A DNA stretch of 33,189 nucleotides from Oscillospiraceae bacterium. GTDB lineage: Bacteria > Bacillota > Clostridia > Oscillospirales > Ruminococcaceae. The stretch covers positions 1-33,189 of the forward strand of contig WRLV01000020.1 of NCBI GenBank assembly GCA_009777445.1. The letters are read 5' to 3'. Both the position numbers and the translations under genes were made by a program. Within the stretch, counting starts at the first letter, position 1. Each line of letters starts with the position of its first letter. Positions 2,997-29,741 of the stretch are shown here, in pieces. The notes beneath the pieces are model-generated. The model did no database searches. It was not told the origin of the DNA and was given only the letters and a program-made list of their open reading frames with translations.

Positions 2997-4208
2997 ATGG
3001 GGAAACTAAACAAGAAGAGCGTAGACGATTTAAATTTATGCTCAAAGCGCGTATTGGTTCGTTGTGACTTCAACGTACCTCTTAAAGAAGGGGAGATTAC
3101 TGATGACGGGCGGATTAAAGCCGCGCTGCCGACAATCCGAAAACTTATATCTGAACATGCGCAGGTGGTTCTTTGTTCGCATTTGGGTAAACCAAAGAAC
3201 GGGCCCGAGGATAAGTTTTCTCTTAAACCCGTTGCCGATAGGCTTACCAAGCTTTTGGAAAAGCAGGTGACATTCGCTAAAGATGATGCAGTGGTAGGCC
3301 CAAACTCGTTAAGGGTAATTGAGGCGATGAAAGACGGTGACGTTGTTTTGTTAGAAAACACACGTTTTCGCTCTGAAGAAACCAAAAACGATGATGCTTT
3401 CAGCAAAGAGTTAGCAAGCATAGCCGACATATATGTCAACGATGCATTCGGCTCTGCCCACCGCGCCCATTGTTCAACAGCAGGGGTTGTTAAATTCGTT
3501 GAGGAAAGTGCTGTAGGGTACCTTATAAACAAGGAAATTGAATTTTTAGGTAACGCAATTGAAGAACCCGAACGTCCTTTTGTCGCGATTTTAGGCGGCG
3601 CGAAAGTTGCCGATAAGTTGAATGTAATTTCAAACTTATTAGACAAATGCGACACCCTTATAATAGGCGGCGGTATGGCATATACATTTATAAAAGCGCA
3701 GGGCGGCGATATTGGGAACTCTTTAGTTGACAACGAGAAGCTTGACTATTGCAACGAAATGCTTTCTAAAGCCAAAAGTTTGGGGAAAACCATACTTTTG
3801 CCCGTTGATTCGGTTAACTCTCCGTCTTTCCCTAATCCGATTGACGGGGGTATACAAATCGAAATCACGGCGGCAAATCAACTTAGCGCGGGGACTTTAG
3901 GGCTTGATATAGGCCCCGAAAGCCAAAAAATATTCGCGGCGGCAGTTTCAAACGCGAAAACAGTTGTTTGGAATGGGCCTATGGGAGTATTTGAAAATCC
4001 CACGCTTGCGAAAGGAACTATTGCGGTGGCGGCGGCATTAGCTCAAACAAATGCCACAACAATAATCGGCGGCGGCGACAGTGCGGCGGCTATAGTTCAG
4101 TTGGGGTTTGCCGACAAAGTCACACACATATCAACCGGCGGCGGCGCGTCGTTGGAATATCTTGAGGGTAAAACGTTACCGGGGATTGACGTACTTGACG
4201 ATAATTGA
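2997..4208 (+). CDS. pgk: Phosphoglycerate kinase
   Basis: Transfers the acyl phosphate of 1,3-bisphosphoglycerate to ADP, giving 3-phosphoglycerate and ATP in lower glycolysis. The 403-residue protein is full length. Motifs include [12 protein letters not shown] near residue 18, LCSHLGKPK, the substrate segment [21 protein letters not shown], and the nucleotide-binding GGGDSAAA and [14 protein letters not shown] near the end. The ATG follows GAAAGGCAGG. It is followed by tpiA and gpmI; a gapdh gene, a common neighbour, is absent here. The TGA at 4206-4208 falls inside the first TTGAC unit of the repeat at 4205-4275. Confidence 0.97.
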
Positions 4209-4275
4209 CGAACAGTTGACAGTTGACAATTGACAGTTGACAGTTGTGGTGTCGCCGTTGGCGACGGGTTTTATT
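4205..4275 (+). repeat. Gene-end modular repeat, copy 1 (heptamer tract plus hairpin)
   Basis: About five TTGACAR heptamers are followed by TGTGGT and a hairpin, GTCGCC (4251-4256), GTT, GGCGAC (4260-4265), then GGGTTTTATTT. The first TTGAC supplies the stop of pgk. It sits inside the pgk-tpiA gap of what looks like one operon, so it need not fully terminate transcription. It lacks the distal GGCGGT hairpin of the full-length copies. Confidence 0.85.
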
Positions 4276-4301
4276 TGTGCAGAAAGGACATGTTTTAAAT
4301 T

Positions 4302-5096
4302 ATGAATAAATCTAAAAGAAGAGCTATTATAGCGGGAAACTGGAAGATGAATAAGACGGCTGCTGAAGCGGTCGCGTTGACTGAGGAAATTAAAAACTCG
4401 GTGTTCAGCGGAAGGACACAAGACTGTGAAGTCGTCCTTTGCGTGCCGTTCACCAGCCTTCAGGCTGTGGTAAAAGCGGTTGAAGGCACGAGCATTAAAG
4501 TGGGTGCGCAAAACGTCCATTTCGAGCCTTGTGGGGCGTTCACCGGTGAAATATCGGTTGACATGCTTAAAGAAATAGGGGTTGAATATGTGATTGTGGG
4601 GCATTCTGAGCGGCGGCAATATTTCGGCGAGACCGACCAAACTGTCAATAAACGCGCTAAAGCCGCGTTGGCAGGAGGGCTTGTTCCCATTGTTTGCATA
4701 GGCGAGTTGCTTTCACAGCGCGAATCGGGCGAGACTGAAAATGTTCTTTCGTCTCAACTTAAATTGTGTTTAGAGGGAATGTCTGAGAGCGACATCAAAA
4801 AAGTGGTAATAGCTTATGAGCCTGTTTGGGCGATAGGCACAGGAAAAACCGCAACCGATGAACAAGCCGGCGATGCTTGTCTGTTTATCAGAGAATGTAT
4901 TGCAAAACTTTATAACCACGAAATTGCCGATGGAATAACCATACAATACGGCGGTTCGATGAACGCCGCCAACGCGGCAGGATTGCTCTCGAAAGAAGAT
5001 GTTGACGGCGGTCTGATTGGCGGTGCATCACTCAAAGCAATTGATTTCTCAAAAATCGTTAAGTCGGCGAACACTTTAGAAAGAAGGTTCTTATGA
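4302..5096 (+). CDS. tpiA: Triosephosphate isomerase
   Basis: Interconverts dihydroxyacetone phosphate and glyceraldehyde 3-phosphate. The 264 residues fit the family, with a short basic N-terminal addition (MNKSKRR). Catalytic residues are visible: Asn13 and Lys15 in AGNWKMN, His101 in VGHSERR, and Glu173 in AYEPVWAIGTGKTA. The phosphate-gripper YGGSM and GGLIGGASL occur near the end. The ATG at 4302 follows AAAGGA with a longish 13-base gap. The stop overlaps the gpmI start by 4 bases (ATGA), so the two are coupled. It is separated from pgk by a 93-base gap that holds a repeat element. Confidence 0.97.
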   Translation: MNKSKRRAIIAGNWKMNKTAAEAVALTEEIKNSVFSGRTQDCEVVLCVPFTSLQAVVKAVEGTSIKVGAQNVHFEPCGAFTGEISVDMLKEIGVEYVIVGHSERRQYFGETDQTVNKRAKAALAGGLVPIVCIGELLSQRESGETENVLSSQLKLCLEGMSESDIKKVVIAYEPVWAIGTGKTATDEQAGDACLFIRECIAKLYNHEIADGITIQYGGSMNAANAAGLLSKEDVDGGLIGGASLKAIDFSKIVKSANTLERRFL

Positions 5097-6664
5097 GCAA
5101 GAAAATTCTCTTAGTGGTAATGGACGGAATTGGTTTTTCACAGACCGGGTTGGGGGATGCGGTTTCGCTTGCCAACACCCCCACCCTTGACAGGCTTATG
5201 AAAGAATGTCAGGTGAAAAAGCTGAAGGCCCACGGAACGGCTGTAGGGTTGCCCTGTGATGATGACATGGGTAACAGCGAGGTTGGGCATAACGCACTTG
5301 GGTGCGGACAGGTGTATTCACAAGGGGCAAAGTTGGTTAACGAGGCAATTGCCAACGGCAGTATTTATCAATCTCAAGCCTGGCGTGAAGTTGTTGAAAA
5401 GCCTTTAAGCAACAACGGCACACTTCATTTTATCGGCTTACTGTCTGACGGAAATGTTCACTCAAACATAGAACATCTTTTCGACATGCTCAAAAGGGCA
5501 AAACAAGACGGCATTAAATCAGTGAGAGTGCATATACTCTTAGACGGCAGAGATGTTCCGTCTACCTCCGCGCTTGAGTATGTCGAGAGACTTGAAAAGG
5601 TTTTAGCTGAATTGAACTCTCCGGACTTTAACGGCAAAATCGCTTCGGGTGGCGGCAGAATGAAGGTCACGATGGACCGCTATCAGGCTGATTGGGGCAT
5701 GGTTGAATGCGGTTGGAAAACCCACGTATTAGCTCAAGGGCGGCAATTTGAATCAGCTTCACAAGCTATAGAGACACTAAGAGCAGAAAACATAGGAATC
5801 ATAGACCAAGACATTCCACCCTTTGTCATATCCGCAAACGAAGCGATTTTAGATGGCGACAGCGTTGTTCTCTTTAATTTCCGCGGCGACCGCGCTATTG
5901 AAATATCTATGGCGTTTGACAACGATGAGTTTGAGTTTTTTGAACGTGGGAAAAAACCGGACATCTGCTACGCCGGAATGTTGCAGTATGACGGGGATTT
6001 GCAGTTGCCGAAACGCTATCTTGTTAACCCCCCCGAAATAAAAAATACACTCACCGATTTGTTAGTGAGCAATAACATTCGACAATACGCCGTGTCTGAA
6101 ACGCAAAAATATGGGCATGTCACCTATTTCTGGAACGGCAACAGAAGCGGAAAAACGAGTGAAGAGCTTGAAACTTTCAAGGAAATACCATCTGATAATG
6201 TGAGCTTTTCGCAACGCCCGTGGATGAAGTCGGCTGAAATCACCGATGACCTAATCGCGGCAATTAAGTCGCAAAAGTATGACTTCATTCGCGCGAACTT
6301 CCCTAACGGCGACATGGTGGGCCACACGGGGAGCCTTGATGCCACCATAATCGGTGTTGAGGCCGTGGATTTAGCATTGGCGCGGCTTATTCCGGTTTGC
6401 GATGAATACGGCATAACGCTGATTGTCACTGCCGACCACGGAAACGCCGACGAAATGCTTGAAAAAGACAAAAAAGGAAACACGGCGATAAGAACCGCCC
6501 ACTCGCTCAATGCAGTTCCGTTTTTCATTTACGAGAAAACGAAAAAATACACCCTCAAAGAAGGCGACAACTTCGGCCTCGCAAACGTCGCCCCGACTAT
6601 TGCGAAGTTGTTAGGATTGACACCGCCAGAGTGTTGGGACGAACAATTGACAATGTACAATTGA
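5093..6664 (+). CDS. gpmI: 2,3-bisphosphoglycerate-independent phosphoglycerate mutase
   Basis: Manganese-dependent alkaline-phosphatase-superfamily enzyme that converts 3- to 2-phosphoglycerate. The 523-residue length is slightly above the usual 510. Visible are the metal DG motif at the start (VVMDGIG), the phosphoserine motif GNSEVGHNALG with Ser62, LLSDGNVHSN, HILLDGRDVP, NFRGDRA, FPNGDMVGHTG and VTADHGNADEM. The ATG overlaps the tpiA stop. The last residues, DEQLTMYN, and the stop codon at 6662-6664 are encoded by a copy of the gene-end repeat, so the natural C-terminus has probably been rewritten by its arrival. This is the last gene of the glycolytic run. Confidence 0.96.
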   Translation: MSKKILLVVMDGIGFSQTGLGDAVSLANTPTLDRLMKECQVKKLKAHGTAVGLPCDDDMGNSEVGHNALGCGQVYSQGAKLVNEAIANGSIYQSQAWREVVEKPLSNNGTLHFIGLLSDGNVHSNIEHLFDMLKRAKQDGIKSVRVHILLDGRDVPSTSALEYVERLEKVLAELNSPDFNGKIASGGGRMKVTMDRYQADWGMVECGWKTHVLAQGRQFESASQAIETLRAENIGIIDQDIPPFVISANEAILDGDSVVLFNFRGDRAIEISMAFDNDEFEFFERGKKPDICYAGMLQYDGDLQLPKRYLVNPPEIKNTLTDLLVSNNIRQYAVSETQKYGHVTYFWNGNRSGKTSEELETFKEIPSDNVSFSQRPWMKSAEITDDLIAAIKSQKYDFIRANFPNGDMVGHTGSLDATIIGVEAVDLALARLIPVCDEYGITLIVTADHGNADEMLEKDKKGNTAIRTAHSLNAVPFFIYEKTKKYTLKEGDNFGLANVAPTIAKLLGLTPPECWDEQLTMYN

Positions 6665-6726
6665 CAATTGACAATTGTGGTGTCCGCTTGCGCGGACGGA
6701 TTGTAGGGGACGGGCTTGCTCGTCCC
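6638..6726 (+). repeat. Gene-end modular repeat, copy 2 (with GGGACGGG module)
   Basis: Begins GACGAACAATTGACAATGTAC within the gpmI coding end, continues as TTGACAA heptamers, and reaches a hairpin GTCCGC (6682-6687), TTGC, GCGGAC (6692-6697). Immediately after is a second, different palindrome, GGGACG (6707-6712) with CGTCCC (6721-6726), preceded by TTGTAG. The TGA of gpmI lies in the heptamer tract. The rest of the gap to recQ contains a partial echo (GGGGTGGGCAAGCCC) and no gene. Confidence 0.85.
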
Positions 6727-6788
6727 GCAATTTGCAGATGTTTAAAAGACGGGGTGGGCAAGCCCTAATTTATTAAGGAAAAACTTCA

Positions 6789-8635: not shown

Positions 8636-8719
8636 TAAATTCATCATGCGAAAGTTTGGCATTGGGAATGTAAATTTAGTATAAATTCTGAATTGTCAAT
8701 AGGTTTTTGAAAAAAAGTC

Positions 8720-8748
8720 TTGCAAATTTAATCGGCTTATGTTATAAT
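8720..8748 (+). promoter_or_regulatory. Extended -10 promoter of pdxST
   Basis: TTGCAA (8720-8725), 17-base spacer, and TGT-TATAAT (-10 at 8743-8748) stand 30 bases before the pdxS start. The 84 bases between recQ and this promoter show no gene or clear terminator. Confidence 0.7.
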
Positions 8749-8778
8749 AAGTTGCAAAGTCTAATGCGAGGAAAGGGC

Positions 8779-9663: not shown

Positions 9664-10264
9664 GAAACTTAACGCCGCCGGCGCGCCGCTTAAAATTGGG
9701 GTGTTGGCCCTTCAAGGCGCGTTTATTGAGCATTGTAATATGTTGAGAAAATTAGATGTTGAGCCGATTGAAATTCGGCGGCGTGTTGATTTTTCAGATA
9801 ACCTTGATGGGCTGATTATTCCCGGCGGCGAGAGCACGGTTATGGCGAAGCTCTTGTATGAGCTTGAATTGTTGAACCCGATTAAAGATGCAATAGCGAA
9901 TGGGCTTCCGACCTTTGGCACCTGCGCCGGGTTAATCTTGCTTTCTCGTCAGATTGAGGGGGCAGGAGAGGGGGCTTTTCCTGTTTTGGATGTGGTTACA
10001 CGCAGAAACGCATACGGGCGACAACTTGGAAGTTTTAAAACAACATCTCAATTTCACGGAATCGGTGAAATCGAGATGGTGTTTATTCGCGCACCATATG
10101 TATCTGAGGTCTATGGGCAAGCGCGAGTCTTGGCTGTTGTTAATGAAAAGGTTGTGGCGGTGGAACAGGGAAAAGTAATAGCAGTCGCCTTCCACCCTGA
10201 GCTTACGGAAGACACGCGGCTACATGAATATTTTGTTAAAATGATTGTCAACTGTCAACTTTAA
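9653..10264 (+). CDS. pdxT: Pyridoxal 5'-phosphate synthase, glutaminase subunit PdxT
   Basis: Class I glutaminase that releases ammonia from glutamine for PdxS. The 203 residues fit the family. Visible are [23 protein letters not shown], the nucleophile cysteine in [10 protein letters not shown], and the catalytic His-Glu pair in AFHPELTED. Translation starts at a GTG (9653) inside the end of pdxS, so the two are coupled. A TTG start at the IGVLAL segment is less likely because the GTG gives the overlap. The last residues (VNCQL) are read from an antisense copy of the gene-end repeat, and the 3' end overlaps the convergent cupin gene by 17 bases. Confidence 0.96.
10244..10261 (-). repeat. 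Gene-end repeat, minimal copy 3 shared by pdxT and cupin
   Basis: Two and a half heptamers only. On the minus strand the unit supplies the TGA stop of the cupin gene. On the plus strand the same bases are stop-free and encode the last residues of pdxT. No hairpin module is attached. Confidence 0.6.
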
Positions 10265-10595: not shown

Positions 10596-10681
10596 AAAAC
10601 AAAATCCTTTCTATAAAAAACGTTGGTCTCGCCCCATCGCCGCTCTATCTCATTTTCGCAAGACATTCCAACCAAAAGCAT

Positions 10682-10793
10682 CACCGCCCAACACAAAATA
10701 AGTGCAGGGCGGTGTAGCTATTATAATTTCAAATCCGTCGCCGTAAGGCGACACCACAATTGTCAATTGTCAATTGTACATTGTCAATTGTTA
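10682..10793 (-). repeat. Gene-end modular repeat, full-length copy 4
   Basis: Read on the minus strand: heptamers with the ATGTAC variant, TGTGGT, hairpin GTCGCC-TTAC-GGCGAC (10752 to 10737), GGATTTGAAATTATAATAGC, and a distal hairpin of CACCGCCC with GGGCGGTG (10714 to 10682). It is about 112 bases and parallels copies at 14675-14796 and 29632-29741 in order of modules. It contains the ppdK stop codon (10784-10786) and fills most of the ppdK-cupin gap. Confidence 0.88.
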
Positions 10794-13408
10794 ATAGCCG
10801 CTTGAGCCGCCGCTAATCTTGCAATCGGCACGCGGAATGGTGAACATGAAACGTAATCTAACCCTACGTTGTGGCAGAAGGTGACGGATGACGGGTCGCC
10901 GCCGTGTTCGCCGCAGATTCCGAGTTTTAAGTCGGGTCGCCCTTCTCTTCCTAAAGTAACAGCAGTTTTCACTAATTTACCAACGCCTTTTTCATCAAGC
11001 CTTGCAAACGGGTCGGACTCATAGACATTCTTCTCATAATAAGCATCAAGGAATTTCCCTGCATCATCGCGTGAGAAGCCAAACGTCATTTGCGTAAGGT
11101 CGTTTGTTCCGAATGAGAAAAATTCAGCTTCTTTTGCAATTTCGTCAGCCGTGAGAGCAGCACGCGGAATTTCAATCATAGTGCCGACCATATATTTCAG
11201 CTCAACGCCTGCATCTTTAATCAGTTTTTCCGCTGTTTCAACAACAATATTTTTAACAAACTGGAATTCCTTAACCTCGCTTGTAAGCGGAATCATAATT
11301 TCAGGAACAACCTGTTTGTCAGCGGCACGGTTTTTGTTTATATTGATTGCCGCTTTAATTACCGCTCTTGTTTGCATTACAGCGATTTCGGGATAAGTGA
11401 CTGCTAAACGACAGCCCCTGTGTCCCATCATTGGGTTGAACTCATGCAAAGATGAGATAATGTCTTTGACGTCTTTGACAGTTTTGCCCATAGAGTTAGC
11501 CAATTTTTCGATGTCTTTTTCGTCTGTAGGAACAAATTCGTGAAGGGGGGGGTCGAGATAGCGGATTGTCACAGGCCAACCTTCAAGTGCTTCGTAAAGC
11601 TCTTCAAAATCTTTTTGTTGGATTGGCTCAATTTTAGCTAATGCCTTTTCGCGTTGTTCTACAGTGTCTGAGCAAATCATTTCACGAATTGCCGCTATTC
11701 TGTCAGTTTCAAAGAACATATGCTCTGTGCGGCAAAGACCGATGCCTTGCGCGCCAAATTCGGCGGCTTTTTTCGCGTCAGCCGCTGAATCGGCGTTAGC
11801 GCGAACTTTAAGAACTCTGTAATTGTCAGACCAGTCCATTATACGTTTGAAGCCGCCACCGATAGTCGCCTCGACAGTGGGTAATTTTTCGCCGTAAATA
11901 TTACCGGTGGAACCGTTAAGCGAGATAAAGTCGCCTTCTTTATATACGTTGCCGCCAAGTTCAAAGAGTTTGTCTTGCTCGTTGAATTTTATGTCGCCAC
12001 AACCGCAAACACAGCAGGTGCCCATTTGGCGAGCCACAACTGCGGCGTGGCTGGTCATACCACCGCGCACGGTGAGAATGCCTTTTGAGCGGTGCATACC
12101 CTCGATGTCTTCGGGAGTTGTTTCAAGACGAACCAAGATGACATCTTTGCCTTCTTTGCCCCAAGCGGCGGCATCATCGGCAGTAAACACAACCTGTCCG
12201 CAAGCGGCACCGGGAGAAGCCGCAAGCCCTCTACCCACCGGTTTTGCCGTAGCAAGTGCATTGGGGTCAAATTGCGGGTGCAAGAGTTGGTCTAACAAAC
12301 GAGGGTCTATCATAGCAACAGCTTGTTTTTCGTCAATCATTTTTTCGTCAACTAAATCACAAGCGATTTTAAGCGCGGCGGCGGCAGTTCTTTTGCCGTT
12401 TCTTGTCTGCAACATATACAATTTTTTATCTTCAATCGTGAATTCCATATCCTGCATATCGCGGTAGTGGTTTTCAAGAATATTAACGTTTTTGACGAAC
12501 TCGTCATAAATTTCGGGCATGACTTCTTTAAGGCGGTCGATATTTTCGGGAGTGCGAATTCCCGCGACAACATCTTCCCCTTGAGCATTAATGAGATATT
12601 CACCATACAGCTTTTTCTCGCCGGTTGCGGGGTTGCGGCTGAAAGCAACGCCTGTCCCCGATGTGTCGCCCATATTACCGAATACCATTAATTGAACGTT
12701 AACAGCAGTTCCCCATGAAGCAGGAATGTCATTCATTCTTCTGTAATAGATTGCTCTATCGTTATTCCATGAACGGAAAACAGCCTCAACCGAATCAAGC
12801 AACTGCTCACGTGGGTCGCTCGGGAAATCAGCCCCGACTTTGGATTTATATTCAGCTTTAAACTGCTCAGAAAGGACTTTGAAATCATCTGCTTCGAGGT
12901 CTATGTCATTTTGAACGCCTTTCTTTTCTTTCATTTCGTCAATAAGCTCTTCAAAGACTTTTTTGCCGGTATCTTTAACAACGTCGGAGTACATCTGGAT
13001 AAAACGGCGATAACAGTCATAAGCCCATCGCGGGTTGCCTGATTTTTCAGCAATAACCTTAACGACTTCATCATTAAGCCCAAGGTTAAGCACGGTGTCC
13101 ATCATGCCCGGCATAGATGCTCTCGCGCCTGAGCGAATTGACACTAACAACGGGTTTTGGCTGTCGCCGAATTTCTTCCCGATTACACCCTCAAGTTTGA
13201 CGATGTTTTCTAAGATTTCAGCGCGCAAATCATCGTTCATCACACGATTGTCCTCATAATATTGAGTGCACGCCTCGGTTGTCACCGTAAACCCCTGGGG
13301 AACGGGAAGCCCAATCCTGGTCATCTCGGCAAGATTTGCCCCTTTTCCGCCGAATTTGTTTTTGTCGCTGCCGTCGGCCTCAGAAAAAAGATAGACAAAT
13401 TTTTTCAT
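10784..13408 (-). CDS. ppdK: Pyruvate, phosphate dikinase
   Basis: Interconverts pyruvate, ATP and phosphate with phosphoenolpyruvate, AMP and pyrophosphate. In clostridia it often works glycolytically with pyrophosphate recovery. The 874 residues match bacterial PPDK. Domains in order are the ATP-grasp N-terminal domain (FGGKGANLAEM near 19, IRSGARASMPGMMDTVLNLG near 91-110), the swivelling phosphohistidine domain (RGGMTSHAAVVAR, His454), and the C-terminal PEP/pyruvate TIM barrel (GLCRTEHMFF, CGEHGGDPSSV with the catalytic Cys). The ATG follows a near-perfect AAGGAGG. It has its own promoter at 13447-13475. The stop lies within a gene-end repeat. No regulatory protein gene (PDRP) is in the window. 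Confidence 0.97.
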   Translation of the reverse strand: MKKFVYLFSEADGSDKNKFGGKGANLAEMTRIGLPVPQGFTVTTEACTQYYEDNRVMNDDLRAEILENIVKLEGVIGKKFGDSQNPLLVSIRSGARASMPGMMDTVLNLGLNDEVVKVIAEKSGNPRWAYDCYRRFIQMYSDVVKDTGKKVFEELIDEMKEKKGVQNDIDLEADDFKVLSEQFKAEYKSKVGADFPSDPREQLLDSVEAVFRSWNNDRAIYYRRMNDIPASWGTAVNVQLMVFGNMGDTSGTGVAFSRNPATGEKKLYGEYLINAQGEDVVAGIRTPENIDRLKEVMPEIYDEFVKNVNILENHYRDMQDMEFTIEDKKLYMLQTRNGKRTAAAALKIACDLVDEKMIDEKQAVAMIDPRLLDQLLHPQFDPNALATAKPVGRGLAASPGAACGQVVFTADDAAAWGKEGKDVILVRLETTPEDIEGMHRSKGILTVRGGMTSHAAVVARQMGTCCVCGCGDIKFNEQDKLFELGGNVYKEGDFISLNGSTGNIYGEKLPTVEATIGGGFKRIMDWSDNYRVLKVRANADSAADAKKAAEFGAQGIGLCRTEHMFFETDRIAAIREMICSDTVEQREKALAKIEPIQQKDFEELYEALEGWPVTIRYLDPPLHEFVPTDEKDIEKLANSMGKTVKDVKDIISSLHEFNPMMGHRGCRLAVTYPEIAVMQTRAVIKAAININKNRAADKQVVPEIMIPLTSEVKEFQFVKNIVVETAEKLIKDAGVELKYMVGTMIEIPRAALTADEIAKEAEFFSFGTNDLTQMTFGFSRDDAGKFLDAYYEKNVYESDPFARLDEKGVGKLVKTAVTLGREGRPDLKLGICGEHGGDPSSVTFCHNVGLDYVSCSPFRVPIARLAAAQAAINN

Positions 13409-13446
13409 TTATTAGATTCCTCCTTAAAATTTTTAATACAAGTATC

Positions 13447-14194: not shown

Positions 14195-14683
14195 GTGAAA
14201 AATAAAGAAAAAAAAGAAAAGAAAGAAAAGAAGGCACGTGCAAAGAGAGAGCGGTTAAAAGGTTTTATCAACGAGTTTAAAACCTTCATCTCGCGCGGAA
14301 ACGTAATGGATTTAGCGGTCGGGGTGATTGTCGGCGCGGCGTTTACGGCAATAGTCAACTCGTTAGTCGGCGATATCGTTACCCCGTTGTTGGGGCTTAT
14401 AATAGGTGGGATTGACTTTTCAGGTTTGGTGGTGACAATCCCCGGGATTTTCGCAGGGCAATCAGTCACAATTACATACGGTAACTTCATTCAGTCAATC
14501 ATCAGTTTTTTGGCAGTGGCATTTTGCGTATTTTTAATTATAAAAGTCATCAACAAAATAAAAGACTCGCTAATAAAAAAAGAGCAAGTCGAAGAAAAGA
14601 AAACAACCCCCGACGAACAACAAGTCGCGCTGTTGGAGGAAATTAAGGAGCTGTTGAAACAGTTGACGGCAGTTGACAATTGA
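14195..14683 (+). CDS. mscL: Large-conductance mechanosensitive channel
   Basis: Membrane-tension-gated homopentameric pore that releases solutes on hypo-osmotic shock. The MscL core is clear: FKTFISRGNVMDLAVGVIVG (N-terminal helix and TM1), a periplasmic loop with DFSGL, TM2 (about residues 98-118) and a C-terminal charged helix ending EEIKELLKQL. The 162-residue protein is longer than usual because a GTG start adds about 20 Lys/Glu-rich residues (KNKEKKEKKEKKARAKRER) before the normal beginning. No later ATG precedes the conserved helix, so the extension seems real. The strong promoter lies upstream. The stop TGA (14681-14683) is inside a gene-end repeat, which also encodes the last residues. 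Confidence 0.95.
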   Translation: MKNKEKKEKKEKKARAKRERLKGFINEFKTFISRGNVMDLAVGVIVGAAFTAIVNSLVGDIVTPLLGLIIGGIDFSGLVVTIPGIFAGQSVTITYGNFIQSIISFLAVAFCVFLIIKVINKIKDSLIKKEQVEEKKTTPDEQQVALLEEIKELLKQLTAVDN

Positions 14684-14796
14684 CGAACAATTGACAATGT
14701 ACAATTGACAATTGACAATTGTGGTGTCGCCTTGCGGCGACGGATTTAAAATTATAACAACTACACCGCCTAACACAAAAATTGCCGGGCGGTGTA
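14675..14796 (+). repeat. Gene-end modular repeat, full-length copy 5
   Basis: Heptamers with GACGAAC and ATGTAC variants, TGTGGT, hairpin GTCGCC (14726-14731)-TTGC-GGCGAC (14736-14741), GGATTTAAAATTATAACAAC, then a perfect 9-bp distal hairpin TACACCGCC (14762-14770) with GGCGGTGTA (14788-14796). It carries the mscL stop. Its heptamer tract is the exact inverse of that of copy 6, across about 120 bases. Confidence 0.9.
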
Positions 14797-14814
14797 TAAT
14801 TCGTTATTCAATTC

Positions 14815-14881
14815 GGGACAGGCAAGCCCGTCCCCTACAATAATTGTCAATTGTCAATTGTACATTGTCAATTGTCCGTCA
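14815..14881 (-). repeat. Gene-end modular repeat, copy 6 (GGGACGGG variant)
   Basis: On the minus strand it reads TGACGGACAATTGACAATG, the heptamer tract, ATTATTGTAG, and GGGGACGGGCTTGCCTGTCCC, whose ends GGGAC and GTCCC pair. The GTCGCC hairpin is absent and replaced by this module. The pilZ stop (14879-14881) is the first TGA of the element. Confidence 0.85.
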
Positions 14882-15277: not shown

Positions 15278-15339
15278 GTTGATAGTGGAGAGTGGACAGT
15301 GGATAGTTGTTGTGTCCGCTTGCGCGGACGTTTTTAAAA
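15278..15339 (+). repeat. Gene-end repeat, diverged copy 7 (antisense to pilZ and gyrB-like genes)
   Basis: A decayed heptamer tract (GTTGATAGTGGAGAGTGGACAG) leads to TGTTGTGTCCGC (stem 15314-15319), TTGC, GCGGAC (15324-15329), then GTTTTTAAAA. It faces copy 8, forming a composite inverted structure between the gyrB-like and pilZ genes. Confidence 0.7.
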
Positions 15340-15342
15340 TAC

Positions 15343-15413
15343 GTCGCCAACGGCGACTCCATAACTGTCAATTGTCAATTGTCAACTGTCAATTGTTCGT
15401 CAACTGTTCGTCA
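15343..15413 (-). repeat. Gene-end modular repeat, copy 8
   Basis: On the minus strand it starts at the gyrB-like stop (TGACGAAC twice), continues with TTGACAR heptamers, and ends in hairpin GTCGCC (15357-15352)-GTT-GGCGAC (15348-15343). The distal module is absent. Confidence 0.82.
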
Positions 15414-19542: not shown

Positions 19543-19583
19543 TATTCCAATTCCTCCAAAAAATTCAAAATCCAACCCACCCT

Positions 19584-19612: not shown

Positions 19613-19705
19613 GTTTTTTTTGAAATTATTCAAAATTTAAGTAAAAATGCACAAATATTGTTGTGGTTTTTGGGGTTTGGTGGTTGTTATTGACGGGGTT
19701 GGGGT

Positions 19706-19736
19706 GGTTGACAACGCGGTGTGATTATGGTATAAT
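19706..19736 (+). promoter_or_regulatory. Consensus promoter of hicAB, also left copy of a direct repeat
   Basis: TTGACA (19708-19713), 17 bases, TATAAT (19731-19736), then GGGGTGAAGG and the hicA ATG 20 bases on. The 21 bases from 19706 (starting GGTTGACAACGCGGTGTG) recur exactly at 21388-21408. A second TTGAC occurs at 19690. Confidence 0.8.
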
Positions 19737-19755
19737 TTATTTTAGGGGTGAAGGA

Positions 19756-19938: not shown

Positions 19939-19972
19939 TCCCCCCATACTAAAAGCAAAGGAGCTATTTACA

Positions 19973-20380: not shown

Positions 20381-20403
20381 AGACAGGGCTGAGGTAACTA
20401 ACG

Positions 20404-20443
20404 AAAGAGCGCGCCGCAAAAAAGCAGTGCGCTTTTATCTTTT
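20404..20443 (+). terminator. Intrinsic terminator of hicAB
   Basis: AAAGAGCGC (20404-20412) pairs with GCGCTTTT (20429-20436) with one bulge, with a small inner GC/GC pairing, followed by ATCTTTT. Confidence 0.65.
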
Positions 20444-20445
20444 AG

Positions 20446-20498
20446 CATGATTTTTCAATTTTGTCAAGTTTTTAATAAAATTTTTTAGACGATGGCGC
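20446..20498. repeat. Direct repeat A flanking the aspartic-protease cassette
   Basis: A 53-base AT-rich segment (CATGATTTTTC...GATGGCGC) that recurs with few changes at 21323-21387. It sits just past the end of the protease gene. Confidence 0.75.
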
Positions 20499-20506
20499 TA
20501 AAATTT

Positions 20507-21279: not shown

Positions 21280-21322
21280 AAGCCCTCCAACAAATAAAAA
21301 TAAGAATACTTTAATATTTTAA

Positions 21323-21387
21323 CATAATTTTTCGATTTTGTCAAGTTTTTAATAAAACTTTTTAGACGACTTTTTAGATGATGGCGC
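21323..21387. repeat. Direct repeat B flanking the aspartic-protease cassette
   Basis: Same sequence as 20446-20498 with a few substitutions and an extra 12-base internal duplication (TTTTTAGACGAC / TTTTTAGATGAT). The two copies are 877 bases apart and enclose only the two-gene cassette. Confidence 0.75.
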
Positions 21388-21418
21388 GGTTGACAACGCG
21401 GTGTGATTGTGCTATACT
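21388..21418 (+). promoter_or_regulatory. Duplicate of the hicAB promoter, pointing into the 3' end of hflX
   Basis: TTGACA (21390-21395), 17 bases, TATACT (21413-21418). The first 21 bases are identical to 19706-19726. It directs plus-strand transcription, but the next gene, hflX, is on the minus strand, ending at 21423, so any transcript would be antisense to hflX. Confidence 0.65.
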
Positions 21419-21422
21419 AAAT

Positions 21423-22709
21423 TTAGTTCTTATCCCCCAACTGCAACCCGTTGAGAACTACCACGTCTACCAAAGCATTAACTTTTATGCCGTCGCTTAG
21501 AAATTCTTCTGAATAGATTATGCCGTTTTCGCGGATTTTTGACGTAAGCCCTGCTTGAGCATACGGGATTAGCAATGTCACGCGCTTTGCTGTCTCGGGA
21601 AGCGTTTTCGCAAGAACTTCTAACATACGTTCAAGCCCGTAACCCGTTTTCGCGCTGATTTCAAGCGGTGCGCCGGCGGTTTCAGCGGTTTCTCCGGCGG
21701 CGCGCCAACTGCCATCGGCGGCTCGCCGGTCGCATTTGTTAAGTATGGTTACGATGGGGATTCCTCCGCAGCCTAATTCTGACAGGATTTTTTCTGTGGT
21801 TTTGGTTTTTTCATAAACTTGTTCATCAGAGGCATCGGCTAAATGAAGGATTATATCGGCGTTTTTGGCTTCTTCGAGGGTGGATTTAAAAGCCTCTACC
21901 AAATGGTGAGGTAGTCGCCTTATAAGTCCCACCGTGTCAATCAGCAACAGCTCTCTGCCATCGGGTAGTGTTACGGCGCGTGAGGTAAGGTCTAAGGTGA
22001 CGAAAAGCTTGTCTTGCTCTAAAACACCGGCGTTGGTTAATTTATTCAATAGTGTGGATTTCCCTGCGTTGGTGTAACCGACAATCGCGCCTGTTAAAAC
22101 TCTGTCTTTTTTGCGGCGTGAACGCATGAAGTCACGGCGACTTTGAAGCTCTTTCAGCTCGTTTGAAAGTTTTGAAATGCGGCGGCGAATATGGCGACGG
22201 TCGGTTTCAAGCTGGGTCTCGCCCGGGCCGCGGGTTCCAATCCCACCGCCTAAACGGCTTAACGCTGTACCCATTCCCGAAAGACGAGGAAGCCGATATT
22301 TAAGTTGCGCCAATTCAACTTGAAGCTTGCCCTCACCCGACACAGCGCGCGCGGCGAATATATCGAGAATCAGCATAGTGCGGTCAATCACCCTTACTTG
22401 CTTTTTCTCGCCTATAAGCCGCTCAATGTTTCTGATTTGACTGCTTGACAACTCATCGTCAAAAACGACAAGCTCAACCTCAAATTGTTCGCAAAGTTCG
22501 GCAATTTCTTCGATTTTGCCTTGCCCCAAATAGGTTGAAGCTAACGGGCGTTCAAGCTTTTGAACAACCTTTGCGACAACGCGGCTTCCTGCTGTTTGCG
22601 CCAATTCTTCAAGCTCGTCAACAGACACATCGGCATCATATTCGCCGGTGTCAGCGGCGGCAACAATTGACAAAGTCGGCATTTCGTTTTGGTGATGATT
22701 TGTGTTCAT
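21423..22709 (-). CDS. hflX: Ribosome-associated GTPase HflX
   Basis: A GTPase that splits stalled or hibernating ribosomes in other bacteria. The 428 residues fit. The HflX N-terminal domain is visible (YLGQGKIEEIAELC, VVFDDELSSSQIRNIE, VIDRTMLILDIFAARA), then the linker GTRGPGETQLETDRR with a coiled coil, then the G domain with GYTNAGKST (P-loop), DTVGLIRRLPH (G3), NKCD (G4) and ISAKTG (G5). The start has GAAAGG 9 bases upstream. It is divergent from nadB with only 42 bases between start codons, so their promoters must overlap each other or the coding ends. Confidence 0.96.
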   Translation of the reverse strand: MNTNHHQNEMPTLSIVAAADTGEYDADVSVDELEELAQTAGSRVVAKVVQKLERPLASTYLGQGKIEEIAELCEQFEVELVVFDDELSSSQIRNIERLIGEKKQVRVIDRTMLILDIFAARAVSGEGKLQVELAQLKYRLPRLSGMGTALSRLGGGIGTRGPGETQLETDRRHIRRRISKLSNELKELQSRRDFMRSRRKKDRVLTGAIVGYTNAGKSTLLNKLTNAGVLEQDKLFVTLDLTSRAVTLPDGRELLLIDTVGLIRRLPHHLVEAFKSTLEEAKNADIILHLADASDEQVYEKTKTTEKILSELGCGGIPIVTILNKCDRRAADGSWRAAGETAETAGAPLEISAKTGYGLERMLEVLAKTLPETAKRVTLLIPYAQAGLTSKIRENGIIYSEEFLSDGIKVNALVDVVVLNGLQLGDKN

Positions 22710-22751
22710 AAAAATTAACCTTTCAATTTAATAAAGGGGCGTACTTTAAAT

Positions 22752-24239: not shown

Positions 24240-24240
24240 C

Positions 24241-25080: not shown

Positions 25081-26419
25081 TATATTCTAAGTTCGCGGCA
25101 GAATCAGCGGTGTACGGGTGTTCTTTGCCTAAAACCCTTTCGCGAATTTTTAAAGCTTTTTCGTAAAATTTCAACGCCTTTGCATAGTTGCCTTGTTTGT
25201 CATAAAGCAATGCCATATTGCCATAGAGCGTGGCGGTGTTAGGGTGTTCTTTACCCAAAACCCTTTCATAAATTGCCAAAGCTTTTTCGCAAAAGCTAAT
25301 CGCCTTAGCATCATCGCCTTGATTGTTATAAATTGCCGCCATATTGTTATAGGTTGTGGCGGTCTCCGGATGTTCTTTGCCTAAACTCTTTTCTTGAATT
25401 TCCGAAGCTTTTTCGTGAAACTCAAGCGCCTTGACGTAGTCGCCTTGATTGTCATAAACTACCGCCATATTGTTATAGGTTGTGGCGGTTTTTTGGTGTT
25501 CTTTGCCAAAAACTTTCTCGTCAATCTTTAAAGTTTTTTCGTAAAGTTCAAACGCTTTTGCATAGTCACCCATCTCAACATAAACGGCTGCCATATTGTT
25601 ATAGATTGTGGCGGTTTCCGGGTGTTCTTTGCCAAAAGTCTTTTCGTTAATTTCCAAAACTTTTTCGTAAAACTCTAACGCTTTTGCATATTCGCCCTGC
25701 CCGTTATATATCTTTGCTATATCAGAAGCTGAATTTTCAGACTCGCTTTTATATTTCGGCAATAATTCATTAAATCTTTTATAAAAACGTTTTAAATCAA
25801 TTGAGTGTAAAACCCGTAAATCTGTATTCAGAGTTAATATTTTTAAGAGCGTTTCAAACTCTTTTTGAGTACCCATGTCTTTTACTTTAGCGTATCCGTC
25901 TAAATAATAATTAAGTAATTCTCGATTAGTTTCGCTGTATGAATTTTCATAGTCAATTTTGGCAGAGGGGGCGTTTGTTGTATCTGTGACAAATTCGACA
26001 TGATAACAAAAAAACGAGTTGAAATCAGGGGCGCGGCGCGCGAGTTCTATGCGAAAATATGACGGCATTATAAAAACCAAAGCACAAGGCAATTCTGCCA
26101 AAGCATCACGACTTAAATTTATAGCCTGCAAAAACTCAACCTCTTCCATATCACCGCAACCCAAATTAAAGTTAACCAAAAGCAAATGTTTTGTCGTTTT
26201 TTTCATATGCTCTCTTAAATAAGCGCACGAAAAACGCATGTTATCTCCAAAATCAATAATCTGCGTCTCGCCCTCTGGAAGTCGAGAGCTGATTTCTTCG
26301 GCGATTTTCTTTTGCAAAGGCATGGCGTTAGCCACCACACAGAAGAAAGCGTTTGCCTGTTGTAGTGCAAGCCTTTGGCACAGCCGTTCAATTTTTTGTT
26401 CATCAACGGCTACTAACAT
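25058..26419 (-). CDS. TPR protein with an N-terminal NTPase-like partner domain
   Basis: A 453-residue cytoplasmic protein in two parts. Residues 1 to about 175 form an alpha/beta domain with FFCVVANAMPLQKKIAEEIS, HLLLVNFNLG, then INLSRDALAELPCALVFIMP and RRAPDFNSFF. From memory this looks like the Walker-less domain found before TPRs in bacterial TPR/ATPase pairs. Residues about 226-435 are five 42-residue TPRs of the kinesin-light-chain type, each ending LGKEHP or FGKEHP. Its start overlaps the ATPase gene by 7 bases. It is the last gene of a three-gene operon and probably senses or scaffolds a ligand for the ATPase. No enzyme motif is seen. Confidence 0.82.
   Translation of the reverse strand: MLVAVDEQKIERLCQRLALQQANAFFCVVANAMPLQKKIAEEISSRLPEGETQIIDFGDNMRFSCAYLREHMKKTTKHLLLVNFNLGCGDMEEVEFLQAINLSRDALAELPCALVFIMPSYFRIELARRAPDFNSFFCYHVEFVTDTTNAPSAKIDYENSYSETNRELLNYYLDGYAKVKDMGTQKEFETLLKILTLNTDLRVLHSIDLKRFYKRFNELLPKYKSESENSASDIAKIYNGQGEYAKALEFYEKVLEINEKTFGKEHPETATIYNNMAAVYVEMGDYAKAFELYEKTLKIDEKVFGKEHQKTATTYNNMAVVYDNQGDYVKALEFHEKASEIQEKSLGKEHPETATTYNNMAAIYNNQGDDAKAISFCEKALAIYERVLGKEHPNTATLYGNMALLYDKQGNYAKALKFYEKALKIRERVLGKEHPYTADSAANLEYIKSHLHS
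25115..25744 (-). repeat. Five tandem 126-bp TPR-coding repeats
   Basis: The five TPR units are similar at DNA level. Blocks such as GTTCTTTGCC and GCCATATTGTTATA recur every 126 bases, so unit number can change by recombination without breaking the frame. Confidence 0.75.
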
Positions 26420-27678
26420 TGAACACCTCCGCTTTTTTTGTCAATATAGTCACGAACAAGTGGGTGTAAATCTATCCAACGCTCGCCGTTATATTCAAAA
26501 ACCGCCCCACAATATAATAAGTCGGGGACTAACTCATCTTGCTTGGGGTCATGATTTCCGTTGTAAATCGAATTTACTAAGGGCAAAAGATTTACAGGGA
26601 TTCTCATATAAACCTCATTTGTAAAATTTTTTATAGTAAAGTCTAATGCTTCCATGCTTATTTTTTCTCTTTTACGCATGTAGGTTTCAAACGCACTGTT
26701 TGAAATTAAATAGTTTGTGTCGCGCAAACTTCCGCCGCTTTTTTCAATGATTTTTTCTAAAACACTATCCTCGAAATAACTTTCATCTACCCTTTTTAAA
26801 ATCATTTCGCGTATAACGTGAATCCCTTCAGCGTGGGGATTTTGTTCTTTGTCATGTGTTTTAATCATCGGCATTACAGAGGGCGCGCTAAAATATCCTC
26901 TTAAAGTGGCACCGTCTATAGAGCGATAGATAGACAACGGGCAGGTGACAACAATATGCGCTTTTAGCCCTAAAAATGAGCCAAAGTCTTCGACAAACAA
27001 TTTTCTCACACGTTCTATATTGCATTTTTCAAGCTCGTCTATTATTATAACCAAAGGCTGTTCTAACTGCTCGTTCAAATTCTCAATTAGAGCATTAAGG
27101 GTATTTTTAATAGCGTTCATTTTCGGCTCAAACTCACTGTATAACTCTTCTTTAATACCGGATGCTATTTTTAGAGATGCGGTGATTTTCGCGATAAATC
27201 CCATGAAAATGCCAACGTCAATTTCCCCCTTAACTCCCCAGTTTTCAGTGATTGTTTTGGTCGAAAGCGATTTGTAAAAAGCCGATAAAAGTCTATGGTC
27301 AATATCAAGTTCGTTTTCTTTAGCGTATTTTAAGACACGCTCTACAATCAGCATAAAAATATCAATATAGCTGAAGTTAAACCCATTTAAATCATCCGGA
27401 GCTATTATGCAGATAGATTTAAAGTTGTTGTCGTCAAGCTTTGCCATAAGCATTTGTAATTCAGTTGACTTTCCACATCCCACGTGACCGATAACCAATA
27501 AGCGCGCACAACAACTATCAGACATAGTTATCTGACTATATAAGTTGTCATAGAATTCGTAGGAACTGCTACCCCTTGCAATGGCGGTTTCTTGATAAAA
27601 ATCTCGTTGCTCTTTTTTCAACGCCTCCGGTTTGAAGATGTTAAATATTTGTCTCATTGATGTTGCTTTTTTAGTCAT
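26413..27678 (-). CDS. P-loop ATPase, partner of the TPR protein
   Basis: A 421-residue cytoplasmic P-loop NTPase with AAA/ORC-like layout. Walker A is GHVGCGKST at 64-72, and Walker B is PLVIIIDELEKC with Asp215-Glu216. A sensor-like GGSLRDTNYLIS lies near residue 315, and the C-terminal third looks like a winged-helix region. The GHxGCGKSTEL form is characteristic of a family I recall next to TPR proteins; its role has not been described to my knowledge. The gene starts in the ATGA overlap with the membrane protein and ends 7 bases into the TPR gene, so all three are translationally coupled. KAP or STAND ATPases are alternatives, but no effector domain is fused. Confidence 0.8.
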   Translation of the reverse strand: MTKKATSMRQIFNIFKPEALKKEQRDFYQETAIARGSSSYEFYDNLYSQITMSDSCCARLLVIGHVGCGKSTELQMLMAKLDDNNFKSICIIAPDDLNGFNFSYIDIFMLIVERVLKYAKENELDIDHRLLSAFYKSLSTKTITENWGVKGEIDVGIFMGFIAKITASLKIASGIKEELYSEFEPKMNAIKNTLNALIENLNEQLEQPLVIIIDELEKCNIERVRKLFVEDFGSFLGLKAHIVVTCPLSIYRSIDGATLRGYFSAPSVMPMIKTHDKEQNPHAEGIHVIREMILKRVDESYFEDSVLEKIIEKSGGSLRDTNYLISNSAFETYMRKREKISMEALDFTIKNFTNEVYMRIPVNLLPLVNSIYNGNHDPKQDELVPDLLYCGAVFEYNGERWIDLHPLVRDYIDKKSGGVQC

Positions 27679-28505
27679 GATTTACTTTCCCCTTTCTTCC
27701 CTAAAAGATAAAGCACTGCCGCCAACGTTGCGCCGTCCATCATGAAGGCGGGGGTTGGCATTGTTATTTGCATGACTGCTAAGCTTCGCGCTAAAGTTTC
27801 TGCTTCTGCGAGCCAGAATAACACCTTGCCGCCGGCATCGCCTATAATCAAAACTAAAGCGAAAAGTCCTAATCCGCAAATTTTCACCCTTGAAAAATTG
27901 GTTTCATTTCGCGAGAACACGCGCCCTAACGCAAAATATATTACCCCTAACGCCAAATCGATTAAAAGAGTGATTAGTTTGTCAGACACGTTTATAATTA
28001 CTAAGTTGTGCATAAATATGTTTACCGCTCGCAAAATATACATCGTGGCAGGTAAAGCCATAGCGAAACCTATAGCCGGGGTTATTCGCCTTATAATCGG
28101 CAACATCGCCCCAATCGCAAAAAATCCCACCGCGCCGATTGAAAGAAAAGTTAGCTCAAACGCATCGAATCTTTCGAGATAACACACAATCGCTTTATGA
28201 GTATACACCGCGCCGCTCGCTAACATAAACAAACTGAGCATGGTGGTCTCGAAAGGGGTTATTTTTTTCATTCGCTTGGTGAAAAAATACGTTTTGTTTT
28301 TCTTCAGCACCAACGCTAAAATCCAGAAGAAAGACAATACCACCAAAATCAAAATATAGACCGCCGCACCTAATAAGCCACCGTCGCCGTAATAAAACCC
28401 GGTGTCGAAATCAATTGAATAGAGACACTGAAGATAGCGAACCAAAATAAAAATCGCGCTTAACAGTATGAGGGAAATGAGCAATATTCGCTTGTTTGTT
28501 TTCAT
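27675..28505 (-). CDS. Polytopic membrane protein, first gene of the ATPase-TPR operon
   Basis: A 276-residue integral membrane protein with about seven to eight hydrophobic segments, beginning at residues 7-25 (ILLISLILLSAIFILV). A loop reads SIDFDTGFYYGDGG between the first two. Basic residues on the loops (KKNKTYFFTKRMKK) suggest inside-positive topology. The closing segment is LAAVLYLLGKKGE. No enzyme or transporter motif is recognised. Its last four bases are shared with the ATPase start. It could anchor the ATPase-TPR pair, act as the membrane effector, or be a housekeeping gene that happens to precede it. Confidence 0.8.
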   Translation of the reverse strand: MKTNKRILLISLILLSAIFILVRYLQCLYSIDFDTGFYYGDGGLLGAAVYILILVVLSFFWILALVLKKNKTYFFTKRMKKITPFETTMLSLFMLASGAVYTHKAIVCYLERFDAFELTFLSIGAVGFFAIGAMLPIIRRITPAIGFAMALPATMYILRAVNIFMHNLVIINVSDKLITLLIDLALGVIYFALGRVFSRNETNFSRVKICGLGLFALVLIIGDAGGKVLFWLAEAETLARSLAVMQITMPTPAFMMDGATLAAVLYLLGKKGESKS

Positions 28506-28548
28506 GATGTAACGCCTTTCGGAATAAATTTAAAGGTTGTCTGCATAT

Positions 28549-28577
28549 AGTATAACACAGATTTCAAACTTTTGCAA
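28549..28577 (-). promoter_or_regulatory. Extended -10 promoter of the membrane protein-ATPase-TPR operon
   Basis: On the minus strand TTGCAA (28577-28572), 17 bases, TGT-TATACT (-10 at 28554-28549), 43 bases before the ATG. TTGCAA is its own reverse complement, and 17 bases the other way is TTTAAA (28595-28600), so the same box might serve spoIID weakly. A TATACAAC at 28613-28620 resembles a SigE -10, but no good SigE -35 was found. Confidence 0.6.
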
Positions 28578-28643
28578 GACATATAGCCTTTCCGTTTAAA
28601 ATTTATTTTGGCTATACAACTATGTTTCTGAAGGGAGATAAAT

Positions 28644-29603
28644 GTGTTGAAAAATGTCGCATTGACTTTAGTTCTCTTTTGCGCGCTTTTATTTTCTGTT
28701 CCGTTTGCTCACGGCAAAATGTCGCTTGAGCAGAATTTCGAGAGCCCTGCACACTTTACCCTTAAAATAACAGAAACCGACGAGGTTGTGACGCTTTCTG
28801 TCACCGACTATCTCATCGGCTGTCTCTTTGCGCAAATTCCGCCTGACTATCACATTGAAGCCCTCAAGGCGCAAGCCGTTGCCGCACACACATATGCGTT
28901 GCGGTTTATAAAGAATAATTCCATATTTCCTGATTTTGTTGATGTAATTGGTGGTGCGAATCTCACTGACGATGCAAGAGTTTTTCAACCCTACTATTCG
29001 CCAGACAAAGCGCGAGAATTTTACAAAGACGATTACGAACGCTATTACGATAAGATAAAAACAGCCGCCGAGTTTGGGGCGAAGCACGTCATTCTCTACG
29101 CTGACGAGCCGATTAACGCGGTTTATCATAACGTCTCAAGCGGTGTAACAAACACGCCCGGCGGCGTTTGGGGACAAGACTTTCCCTATTTAAAAAGTGT
29201 CAACAGCGAGTGGGACACATTACACCCGGATTATCTTTGCATAAATGAATTCGCCTTAGACCGCGTGTTAGTCGCGTTTTTAGACCACGACCGCTCTATG
29301 CAAATTCCCGAAAGCCCCGACGACTGGTTCACCGCCCCCAAAGTCAACGCCGCAGGCTATGTCGAGAGCGCGGATATAGGAGAAACCACGTTTTCAGGCG
29401 GCGACATCTGGCGGATTTTAAACCTACGCTCGCCGGCATTCAAGGTAACGCTGAGTTCAAACGTGTTCTCATTTGAAACAAAAGGTTTCGGCCACGGCGT
29501 AGGCCTAAGCCAGTTCGGCGCAAACCACATGGCAGAAAACGGCAAAACAGCTCTTGAAATTTTGAGCTATTATTATAGTGATGTTGAAATTAGAGGGGGG
29601 TAG
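28644..29603 (+). CDS. SpoIID/LytB-family protein with the catalytic Glu replaced by Gln
   Basis: SpoIID proteins are lytic transglycosylases that thin peptidoglycan during forespore engulfment; LytB-type relatives act on vegetative walls. This 319-residue protein has an N-terminal signal segment (residues 5-24) and a SpoIID domain: DYLIGCLFAQIPPDYHIEAL, KAQAVAAHTYALRF, YHNVSSGVTNTPGG and GFGHGVGLSQFGANHMAENG. In active members the position in 'xAAEMP' is Glu; here it is Gln64 (CAA, 28833-28835), which should abolish or change activity. The start is a GTG with AAGGGAG 6 bases upstream. No other spo genes adjoin it. The strong hairpin terminator at 29707 follows. Confidence 0.88.
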   Translation: MLKNVALTLVLFCALLFSVPFAHGKMSLEQNFESPAHFTLKITETDEVVTLSVTDYLIGCLFAQIPPDYHIEALKAQAVAAHTYALRFIKNNSIFPDFVDVIGGANLTDDARVFQPYYSPDKAREFYKDDYERYYDKIKTAAEFGAKHVILYADEPINAVYHNVSSGVTNTPGGVWGQDFPYLKSVNSEWDTLHPDYLCINEFALDRVLVAFLDHDRSMQIPESPDDWFTAPKVNAAGYVESADIGETTFSGGDIWRILNLRSPAFKVTLSSNVFSFETKGFGHGVGLSQFGANHMAENGKTALEILSYYYSDVEIRGG

Positions 29604-29631
29604 TGATTTGCCAACGATGTAAACGGACGGG

Positions 29632-29741
29632 CAATTGACAATGTACAATTGACAATTGACAATTATTGTGTCCGCTTACGCGGACGGATTTAAAATTATA
29701 ACAGCTACACCGCCCGGCAGTTTTTGTCGGGCGGTGTTTTT
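29632..29741 (+). repeat. Gene-end modular repeat, full-length copy 9
   Basis: ATGTAC-containing heptamers, then ATTATTGT, hairpin GTCCGC (29670-29675)-TTAC-GCGGAC (29680-29685), GGATTTAAAATTATAACAGC, and the distal hairpin. It starts 28 bases after the spoIID stop, so it does not supply the stop itself. Confidence 0.88.
29707..29741 (+). terminator. Intrinsic terminator after the SpoIID-like gene (distal repeat hairpin)
   Basis: ACACCGCCCG (29707-29716) pairs perfectly over 10 bp with CGGGCGGTGT (29728-29737), followed by TTTT. This is the clearest terminator form of the GGCGGT hairpin. Confidence 0.75.

Follow-up and report, generated by a model that had tools for sequence, protein, structure and literature searches.

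Why do genes of quite different families end in one and the same short repeat? This question is raised by contig WRLV01000020.1 of assembly GCA_009777445.1 from an Oscillospiraceae bacterium, which was analyzed over its whole length of 33,189 nt (the window; the genome to which it belongs is called G000). The repeat contains a tandem tract of the heptamer TTGACAA, and the two-unit sequence TTGACAATTGACAA, allowing at most one mismatch, matches the window 13 times, compared to 0.01 matches expected from shuffled sequences. An earlier note, made from the sequence alone, had counted nine copies of the tract, and these were recovered as eight strict copies and one degenerate arm at 15279-15310. 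The seven genes that it had named as ending in the repeat, pgk, gpmI, cupin, ppdK, mscL, pilZ and a gyrB-like gene, encode the Pfam domains PGK, iPGM, Cupin_2, PPDK, MscL, PilZ and gyrase B, in agreement with these names. In all seven the stop codon is derived from the repeat and the repeat lies in sense orientation, as had been stated: gpmI, ppdK, mscL and cupin are terminated by a TGA within the heptamer units, and pgk, pilZ and the gyrB-like gene by the TGA at the left end of the element (TGACGAAC / TGACGGAC). The sense strand of the tract carries TGA in all three frames while the opposite strand is open, and the C-terminal tails QLTMYN of gpmI and LTAVDN of mscL are encoded by the repeat; both had likewise been claimed. 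We propose that the tract is the outer arm of an intergenic repeat similar to repetitive extragenic palindromic (REP) sequences and their inverted doublets (REPINs), which overlies stop codons, becomes the 3' end of the gene and is retained there by lock-in, a reading to which we give an even chance.

The assembly of G000 comprises 1.98 Mb in 91 contigs and is 91.6% complete; across it, TTGACAATTGACAA is matched 469 times when at most one mismatch is allowed, versus 31 times for the reversed pattern. Placement was analyzed in a sample of 432 kb, consisting of the window and 20 further G000 stretches. Its genes were predicted by a home-made dicodon caller, not by a standard program. As the stretches were taken from contigs with listed matches, the sample is richer in the repeat than the genome (159 matches in 22% of the bases); gene context played no part in their choice. 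In the strict set a sense stop codon was found within -25 to +30 nt of the tract in 64 of 83 cases and an antisense stop in one, while 1000 random intergenic placements gave 13.1 ± 3.3 with a maximum of 24. The copies are thus non-random in place and orientation, and the random placement that would have refuted the earlier note is not seen. When degenerate units were allowed, 99 tracts were obtained, 74 of which lie in sense at a stop, 18 face a start with their left end and seven are placed otherwise; none was classed as antisense, a tract near both a sense and an antisense stop being scored as sense, and none lies inside a coding sequence. Of the 17 tracts in convergent gaps, 16 lie at a sense stop, and one is also at an antisense stop. 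TGA is the stop of 64 of the 74 tract-ended genes versus 106 of the 315 other genes in the sample, and for 57 of the 76 stop-side tracts the stop TGA was scored as belonging to the repeat itself. Judged by the left boundary of the element, the stop lies inside in 55 of 67 copies and upstream in 12, and the in-element stops are distributed over the codon phases as 25/16/14.

The same placement was found in a second species, G020, which shows 70% DNA identity at gpmI: 41 of 61 tracts are at sense stops and one is antisense, and TGA ends 35 of 41 tract-ended genes versus 67 of 247 others. In 62 named loci of other organisms, which were picked for holding the composite pattern of tract and hairpin, the association is weaker, with 44 of 116 tracts at sense stops and two at antisense stops against a null of 11.8 ± 3.3, and TAA or TAG more frequently serves as the stop (19/44). 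On reversed sequence, the detector that allows degenerate units reported 31 tracts in G000 and seven in the named loci, probably since the reversed tract resembles the unit. In genomes poor in the element no tract was detected in 800 kb of G014 and in 382 kb of G010, and six were detected in 396 kb of G078, four of them in sense at stops. Tract relics after the TGA of other genes showed no clear excess.

The protein ends of orthologues indicate that the element replaced the native stop to within a few codons. Orthologues were accepted if they shared ≥45% identity with the query across 60% of its length and left tails of ≤30 aa unaligned, which gave usable ones for 26 of 64 element genes and 90 of 325 controls; this first comparison included carriers of the element. 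The median length change of the 26 element-ended proteins is 0 aa, with 17 ending within 3 aa and 22 within 6 aa of their orthologues, compared to 69 and 81 of the 90 controls. Upon leaving out G020 and seven orthologous open reading frames (ORFs) that end in a tract, 15 of 21 element genes end within 3 aa and 18 within 6 aa, versus 50 and 62 of 70 controls. Moreover, two clear empty sites, at ilvC and at a DUF2079 gene, have their junction at the native stop. For ilvC (KARI domains) a relative with 82% identity ends in AAC TAA and two carriers end in AAT TGA CAATTGAC; for the DUF2079 gene the relative ends in AAC TAA followed by a terminator-like hairpin and the carrier again in AAT TGA CAATTGAC, the span between the aligned blocks measuring 245 nt in the carrier versus 68 nt in the relative. 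The idea that the repeat can take the place of the native stop, raised in the earlier note, is borne out by these comparisons. In G391 the scpA gene ends in a tract and encodes 235 aa; in 11 relatives its product measures 233-256 aa, starts included. Exact insertion sites were also sought from G000 paralogues, and none was obtained from any pair examined. Two further loci are described here as side observations. At L047 11752-11880 an inverted pair lies between two genes, the upstream one of which ends in the tract, and the counterparts of these genes in the relative G010 overlap by 4 nt. At L162 (about 1452-2031, compared with L311) a cassette-like indel is seen: in G381 a terminator directly follows a gene's stop, and in G380 the two are separated by an additional gene that itself ends in tract and hairpin.

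In each unit of the element the TTGACAA-type tract comes first and, in most cases, a short GTC...GAC hairpin after it, with the stems GTCGCC, GTCCGC, GTCGGC, GTCTGC, GTCCC and others. In 23 examples all 138 of 138 cells pair and 20 two-sided compensatory changes were counted, versus 7.8 in shuffles, none of 500 being as high; the examples were picked for a complete six-pair stem, which inflates the paired percentage but not the variety of stems. Perfect stems of at least five pairs come after 86 of 99 G000 tracts, 35 of 62 G020 tracts and 73 of the 104 from named loci, the baseline being 24 of 160 starts of G000 gaps longer than 80 nt (carriers included). RNA folding of four window copies resulted in z-scores of -0.60, -2.41, -2.92 and -2.43, and Rfam covariance models gave no match at the gathering threshold in the window. 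As read by eye, the main hairpin starts with GTGTC or GAGTC, and a second hairpin (TGTAGGGG...) contains GTAG. Alternatively, the element could be kept for a function in the 3' untranslated region, tract and hairpin protecting or terminating the mRNA and sense copies at stops being retained by positive selection. Covariation across species and the frequency of the hairpin in G000 are in line with this, as are sites that are partly common to both species: among 46 G000-G020 orthologue pairs the tract is at the stop in both for five, in G000 only for ten, in G020 only for one and in neither for 30 (Fisher p 0.010), the common sites being old sites or hot spots. However, little more than half of the G020 tracts are followed by the hairpin and most of them nonetheless lie at sense stops, the hairpin has no clear U-run, and 27 of 35 relatives within the genus have at most ten matches to the tract pattern. 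Selection of this kind is regarded as unlikely.

Units are found alone or in inverted pairs whose tracts both point outward, paired tracts accounting for 44 of 99 in G000 and 27 of 62 in G020. In a pair the second arm faces the start of the next gene: 22 of 25 non-stop tracts in G000 have an opposite-strand tract in the same gap, and where a pair occupies a tandem gap (19 cases), its outer ends are placed at median distances of -8 nt from the stop and 17 nt from the following start. The earlier note had described the element as a portable 3' end. An oriented all-frame stop with a hairpin is indeed found at gene ends in the G000 sample and in G020, and more weakly in other organisms, but the description does not extend to the whole element, since the tract makes up one arm of a REP/REPIN-like repeat and, in inverted pairs, the other arm faces the next start. 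Unpaired arms are distributed between stop side and start side as 53:1 in G000, 31:2 in G020 and 43:12 in the named loci. If copies inserted at random and survived where harmless, short gaps would press them against stops, and two observations fit this: tandem gaps free of the element are short (median 26 nt), and in one case G000 has a pair at a place where the genes of a relative overlap by 4 nt. Random insertion would, however, lead one to expect about as many start-side as stop-side singles, and the single start-side arm against 53 in G000 does most of the refuting; convergent gaps, moreover, are equally strict, and the relatives' gaps at seven carrier sites measure -4, 21, 25, 36, 66, 68 and 81 nt. 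This explanation is therefore considered highly improbable.

For a REP/REPIN-like repeat that becomes locked in as a gene end, the following course may be envisaged. The element adjoins gene 3' ends like other REPs. A copy placed over the last codons or the native stop would end the protein within a few residues whatever the frame, the outcome seen in the orthologue comparison, presumably because of the TGA in all three sense frames. With a stop in any frame the copy can replace the native one and become the gene's own 3' end; once acting as the stop, it could not be lost without read-through, by which the retention of stop-side arms would be favored. More specifically, and as a tentative proposal, a mobile repeat with all-frame stops would capture host stops near 3' ends and then be locked in, with about 170 genes depending on it, a number extrapolated from 57 in the sample by scaling with pattern matches. 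The finding illustrates at a large scale how selfish-looking repeats turn into gene ends.

A second heptamer family, TGCAGAA, the unit of which contains no stop codon, is found in G020, where 63 of 72 lie in inverted pairs. Two heptamer families in one genome, with and without all-frame stops, make the crowding of REPs at 3' ends testable by counting. Unpaired TGCAGAA arms are distributed between stop and start as 3:5, compared to 31:2 for TTGACAA in the same genome (Fisher p 0.0014), a comparison that includes only eight TGCAGAA arms. The stop was scored inside the array, by differing criteria, in 27 of 46 TTGACAA arms versus one of 26 TGCAGAA arms in G020; ten more of the 26 have a stop within 4 nt of the core and in several the TAA stop of the gene directly precedes a TGCAGAA unit. 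The family thus adjoins stops as well, and its flank may supply the TAA; it serves as a control for stops in every frame but not for contact with stops. As a side observation, TGCAGAA pairs (L251-L270, G020) have an inner sequence of the CCGACGGAA type.

Several points weigh against the lock-in reading. No movement of the element was observed. In-element stops are similarly frequent in pairs (16/23) and singles (41/53). If lock-in worked through loss of the other arm, decayed partners should be found, yet a degenerate partner arm was seen beside one of 36 unpaired arms in tandem gaps and beside none of 14 in convergent gaps, so that singles are not necessarily decayed pairs. Singles are more diverged than pairs in G020 (0.76 vs. 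0.86) but not in G000 (0.89 vs. 0.90 and 0.88). Of the 12 copies with an upstream, non-repeat stop, eight still lie within 10 nt of that stop, a proximity that suits targeting and is not accounted for by lock-in alone. The left flank of TGCAGAA arms often is, or touches, the TAA that ends a gene, which lowers the confidence in lock-in and raises that in targeting, and the native gaps at carrier sites are not all tight. With few decayed partners, G000 singles that are not more diverged, abutting non-repeat stops and such gaps, targeted insertion stays a live rival. According to it, the transposition machinery picks translation stops or a neighboring feature in fixed orientation, for example a TTGA/TGAC-like sequence or single-stranded DNA at transcribed 3' ends. 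Left ends abut stops irrespective of whether these are repeat-derived, as do those of the TGCAGAA family, the unpaired arms are almost exclusively stop-side though start-side arms are tolerated in pairs, and the junction is at the stop in both empty sites; all this would be expected from targeting. On the other hand, the junctions show no fixed codon phase, no candidate integrase was found in a search confined to PF01797, and the TGCAGAA family of the same genome has balanced arms. We regard targeted insertion as possible rather than probable.

The distribution of the element is patchy. Among 35 relatives in the genus, G020 has 260 matches, G008 162, G027 145, G023 93, G021 78, G012 76 and G007 47, one more has 19 and the others have 0-10; the exact three-unit tract occurs in five of 298 other genomes sampled across the phylum. 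The composite pattern was found in at least 62 stretches, and among the matches listed these are mostly from Oscillospiraceae, Ruminococcus and Clostridia, with others titled Rikenellaceae, Bacteroides and Tannerella. One genome titled Bacteroides sp. (L133) has pattern counts identical to those of G008 from the genus of the window; its label is doubtful and it is possibly a mislabelled metagenome-assembled genome. An isolate recorded as Pseudoflavonifractor sp. MSJ-30 carries 168 near-matches. The composite pattern was also seen on two viral contigs of IMG/VR (L209:7933-7956 and L210:4477-4500). A transposase like the REP-associated tyrosine transposase (RAYT), to which the earlier note had pointed, was not recovered in G000, as PF01797 (Y1/RAYT transposase), the only transposase family searched, has no match in this 91.6% complete genome, and for this reason the element is classed as REP-like and not as a RAYT-dependent REP. 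PF01797 is equally unmatched in the carriers G027, G021, G023, G012 and G007. In G020 a weak match above the cut-off lies at C154:742-1065 (25.2 bits, profile positions 22-121 of 121, in a 204-aa open frame), and carrier G008 has a short match with internal stops; full matches are present in G014 and G019, both nearly element-free.

The element shares with the REP/REPIN family and the bacterial interspersed mosaic elements (BIMEs; GTAG and CGTC super-families) that it is a short intergenic hairpin element of high copy number, occurring as singles and inverted doublets near the place where an upstream ORF ends, in both unidirectional and convergent gaps. It differs in that its outer arm consists of tandem 7-bp units that offer TGA in every frame, where REPs have a short tag, in that its unpaired arms are nearly all stop-side, and by the lack of a PF01797 match in G000. 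The termini of GTAG REPs are described as often supplying flanking ORFs with a TAG stop, and REPs as lying near the 3' ends of upstream ORFs (PMC3733652); REPs have also been noted immediately downstream of the stop codons of rayt genes (PMC2817692). Inverted doublets have been argued to be the mobile unit, with singlets, which are more diverged, as their remnants (PMC3116915). The TAACTGA heptamers of Beggiatoaceae, cyanobacteria and Bacteroidetes are direct repeats of 7 bp that lie mostly in intergenic DNA and have stops in all three forward frames; 13 sets of them overlap the stop of an upstream gene (PMC4679880). Stop-supplying REP ends and all-frame-stop heptamers are thus both already published (PMC3733652, PMC4679880). 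The TTGACAA tract has the TAACTGA-type trait of three-frame forward stops with an open reverse strand, but the unit differs. The TAACTGA copies of the main genome described lie mostly just upstream of start codons, unlike TTGACAA tracts, which are mostly at stops and whose start-near arms are mostly the reverse partners of pairs; the passages compared mention no hairpin partner or inverted-pair organization (PMC4679880). The tract strings were not found in the literature searched, and a search on Oscillospira/Ruminococcus with short repeats and miniature inverted-repeat transposable elements (MITEs) gave no match. The cyanobacterial short tandemly repeated repetitive (STRR) sequences, known from work of Mazel in 1990, are short tandem heptamers in intergenic regions and are not known to supply stops at gene ends.

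In the window, the single element at the 3' end of pgk (4206..4265, plus strand) has the stop TGA at 4206-4208 as its first triplet, the tract reaching to 4246 and the hairpin occupying 4251-4265; pgk orthologues terminate at the same codon. That of gpmI (6638..6727, plus strand) has the stop TGA at 6662-6664 in the tract, the main hairpin at 6682-6697 and a second, GTAG-type hairpin at about 6703-6727. The convergent genes cupin and pdxT share two heptamer units on the minus strand (10245..10264), which are sense to cupin (stop 10248-10250) and antisense to pdxT (SNO family by Pfam; stop 10262-10264), which reads through them with the tail IVNCQL and stops just past. The single element of ppdK (10737..10797, minus strand) has its stop at 10784-10786 in the tract and its hairpin at 10737-10752. 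The convergent gap of mscL and pilZ holds a pair, the mscL-side arm of which (14663..14741, plus strand) has the stop at 14681-14683, the tract to 14721 and the hairpin at 14726-14741; the pilZ-side arm (14814..14881, minus strand) has the stop at 14879-14881, followed by the tract and a GTAG-type hairpin at about 14814-14838. A further inverted pair occupies 15279-15413 in the gap between the gyrB-like gene and pilZ. Its stop-side arm (15343..15413, minus strand) ends the gyrB-like gene at 15411-15413, with the tract from 15361 and the hairpin at 15343-15357, and its start-side arm (15279..15329, plus strand), too degenerate for the degenerate-unit detector, comprises the degenerate tract already mentioned and a hairpin at 15314-15329, its left end pointing toward the pilZ start. 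The last element (29626..29741, plus strand) lies 22 nt 3' of the native stop of a SpoIID-domain gene, a TAG at 29601-29603, with the tract to 29664, the hairpin at 29670-29685 and, read from the sequence, a terminator-like hairpin at 29707-29741. The earlier note had overlooked the antisense units in pdxT, the inverted pair at 15279-15413 and the position of this last copy beyond a native stop. For annotation it should be noted that C-terminal QLTMYN, LTVDN and LTAVDN in these genomes can be repeat-encoded.

Apart from the element, a tandem, possibly TPR-like 126-bp repeat (42 codons) was observed at 25107-25696 within a minus-strand gene. Two diverged repeat pairs lie at 19700-19742 / 21382-21424 and at 20419-20492 / 21296-21369, and one of them holds a TTGACA...TATAAT-like promoter sequence.

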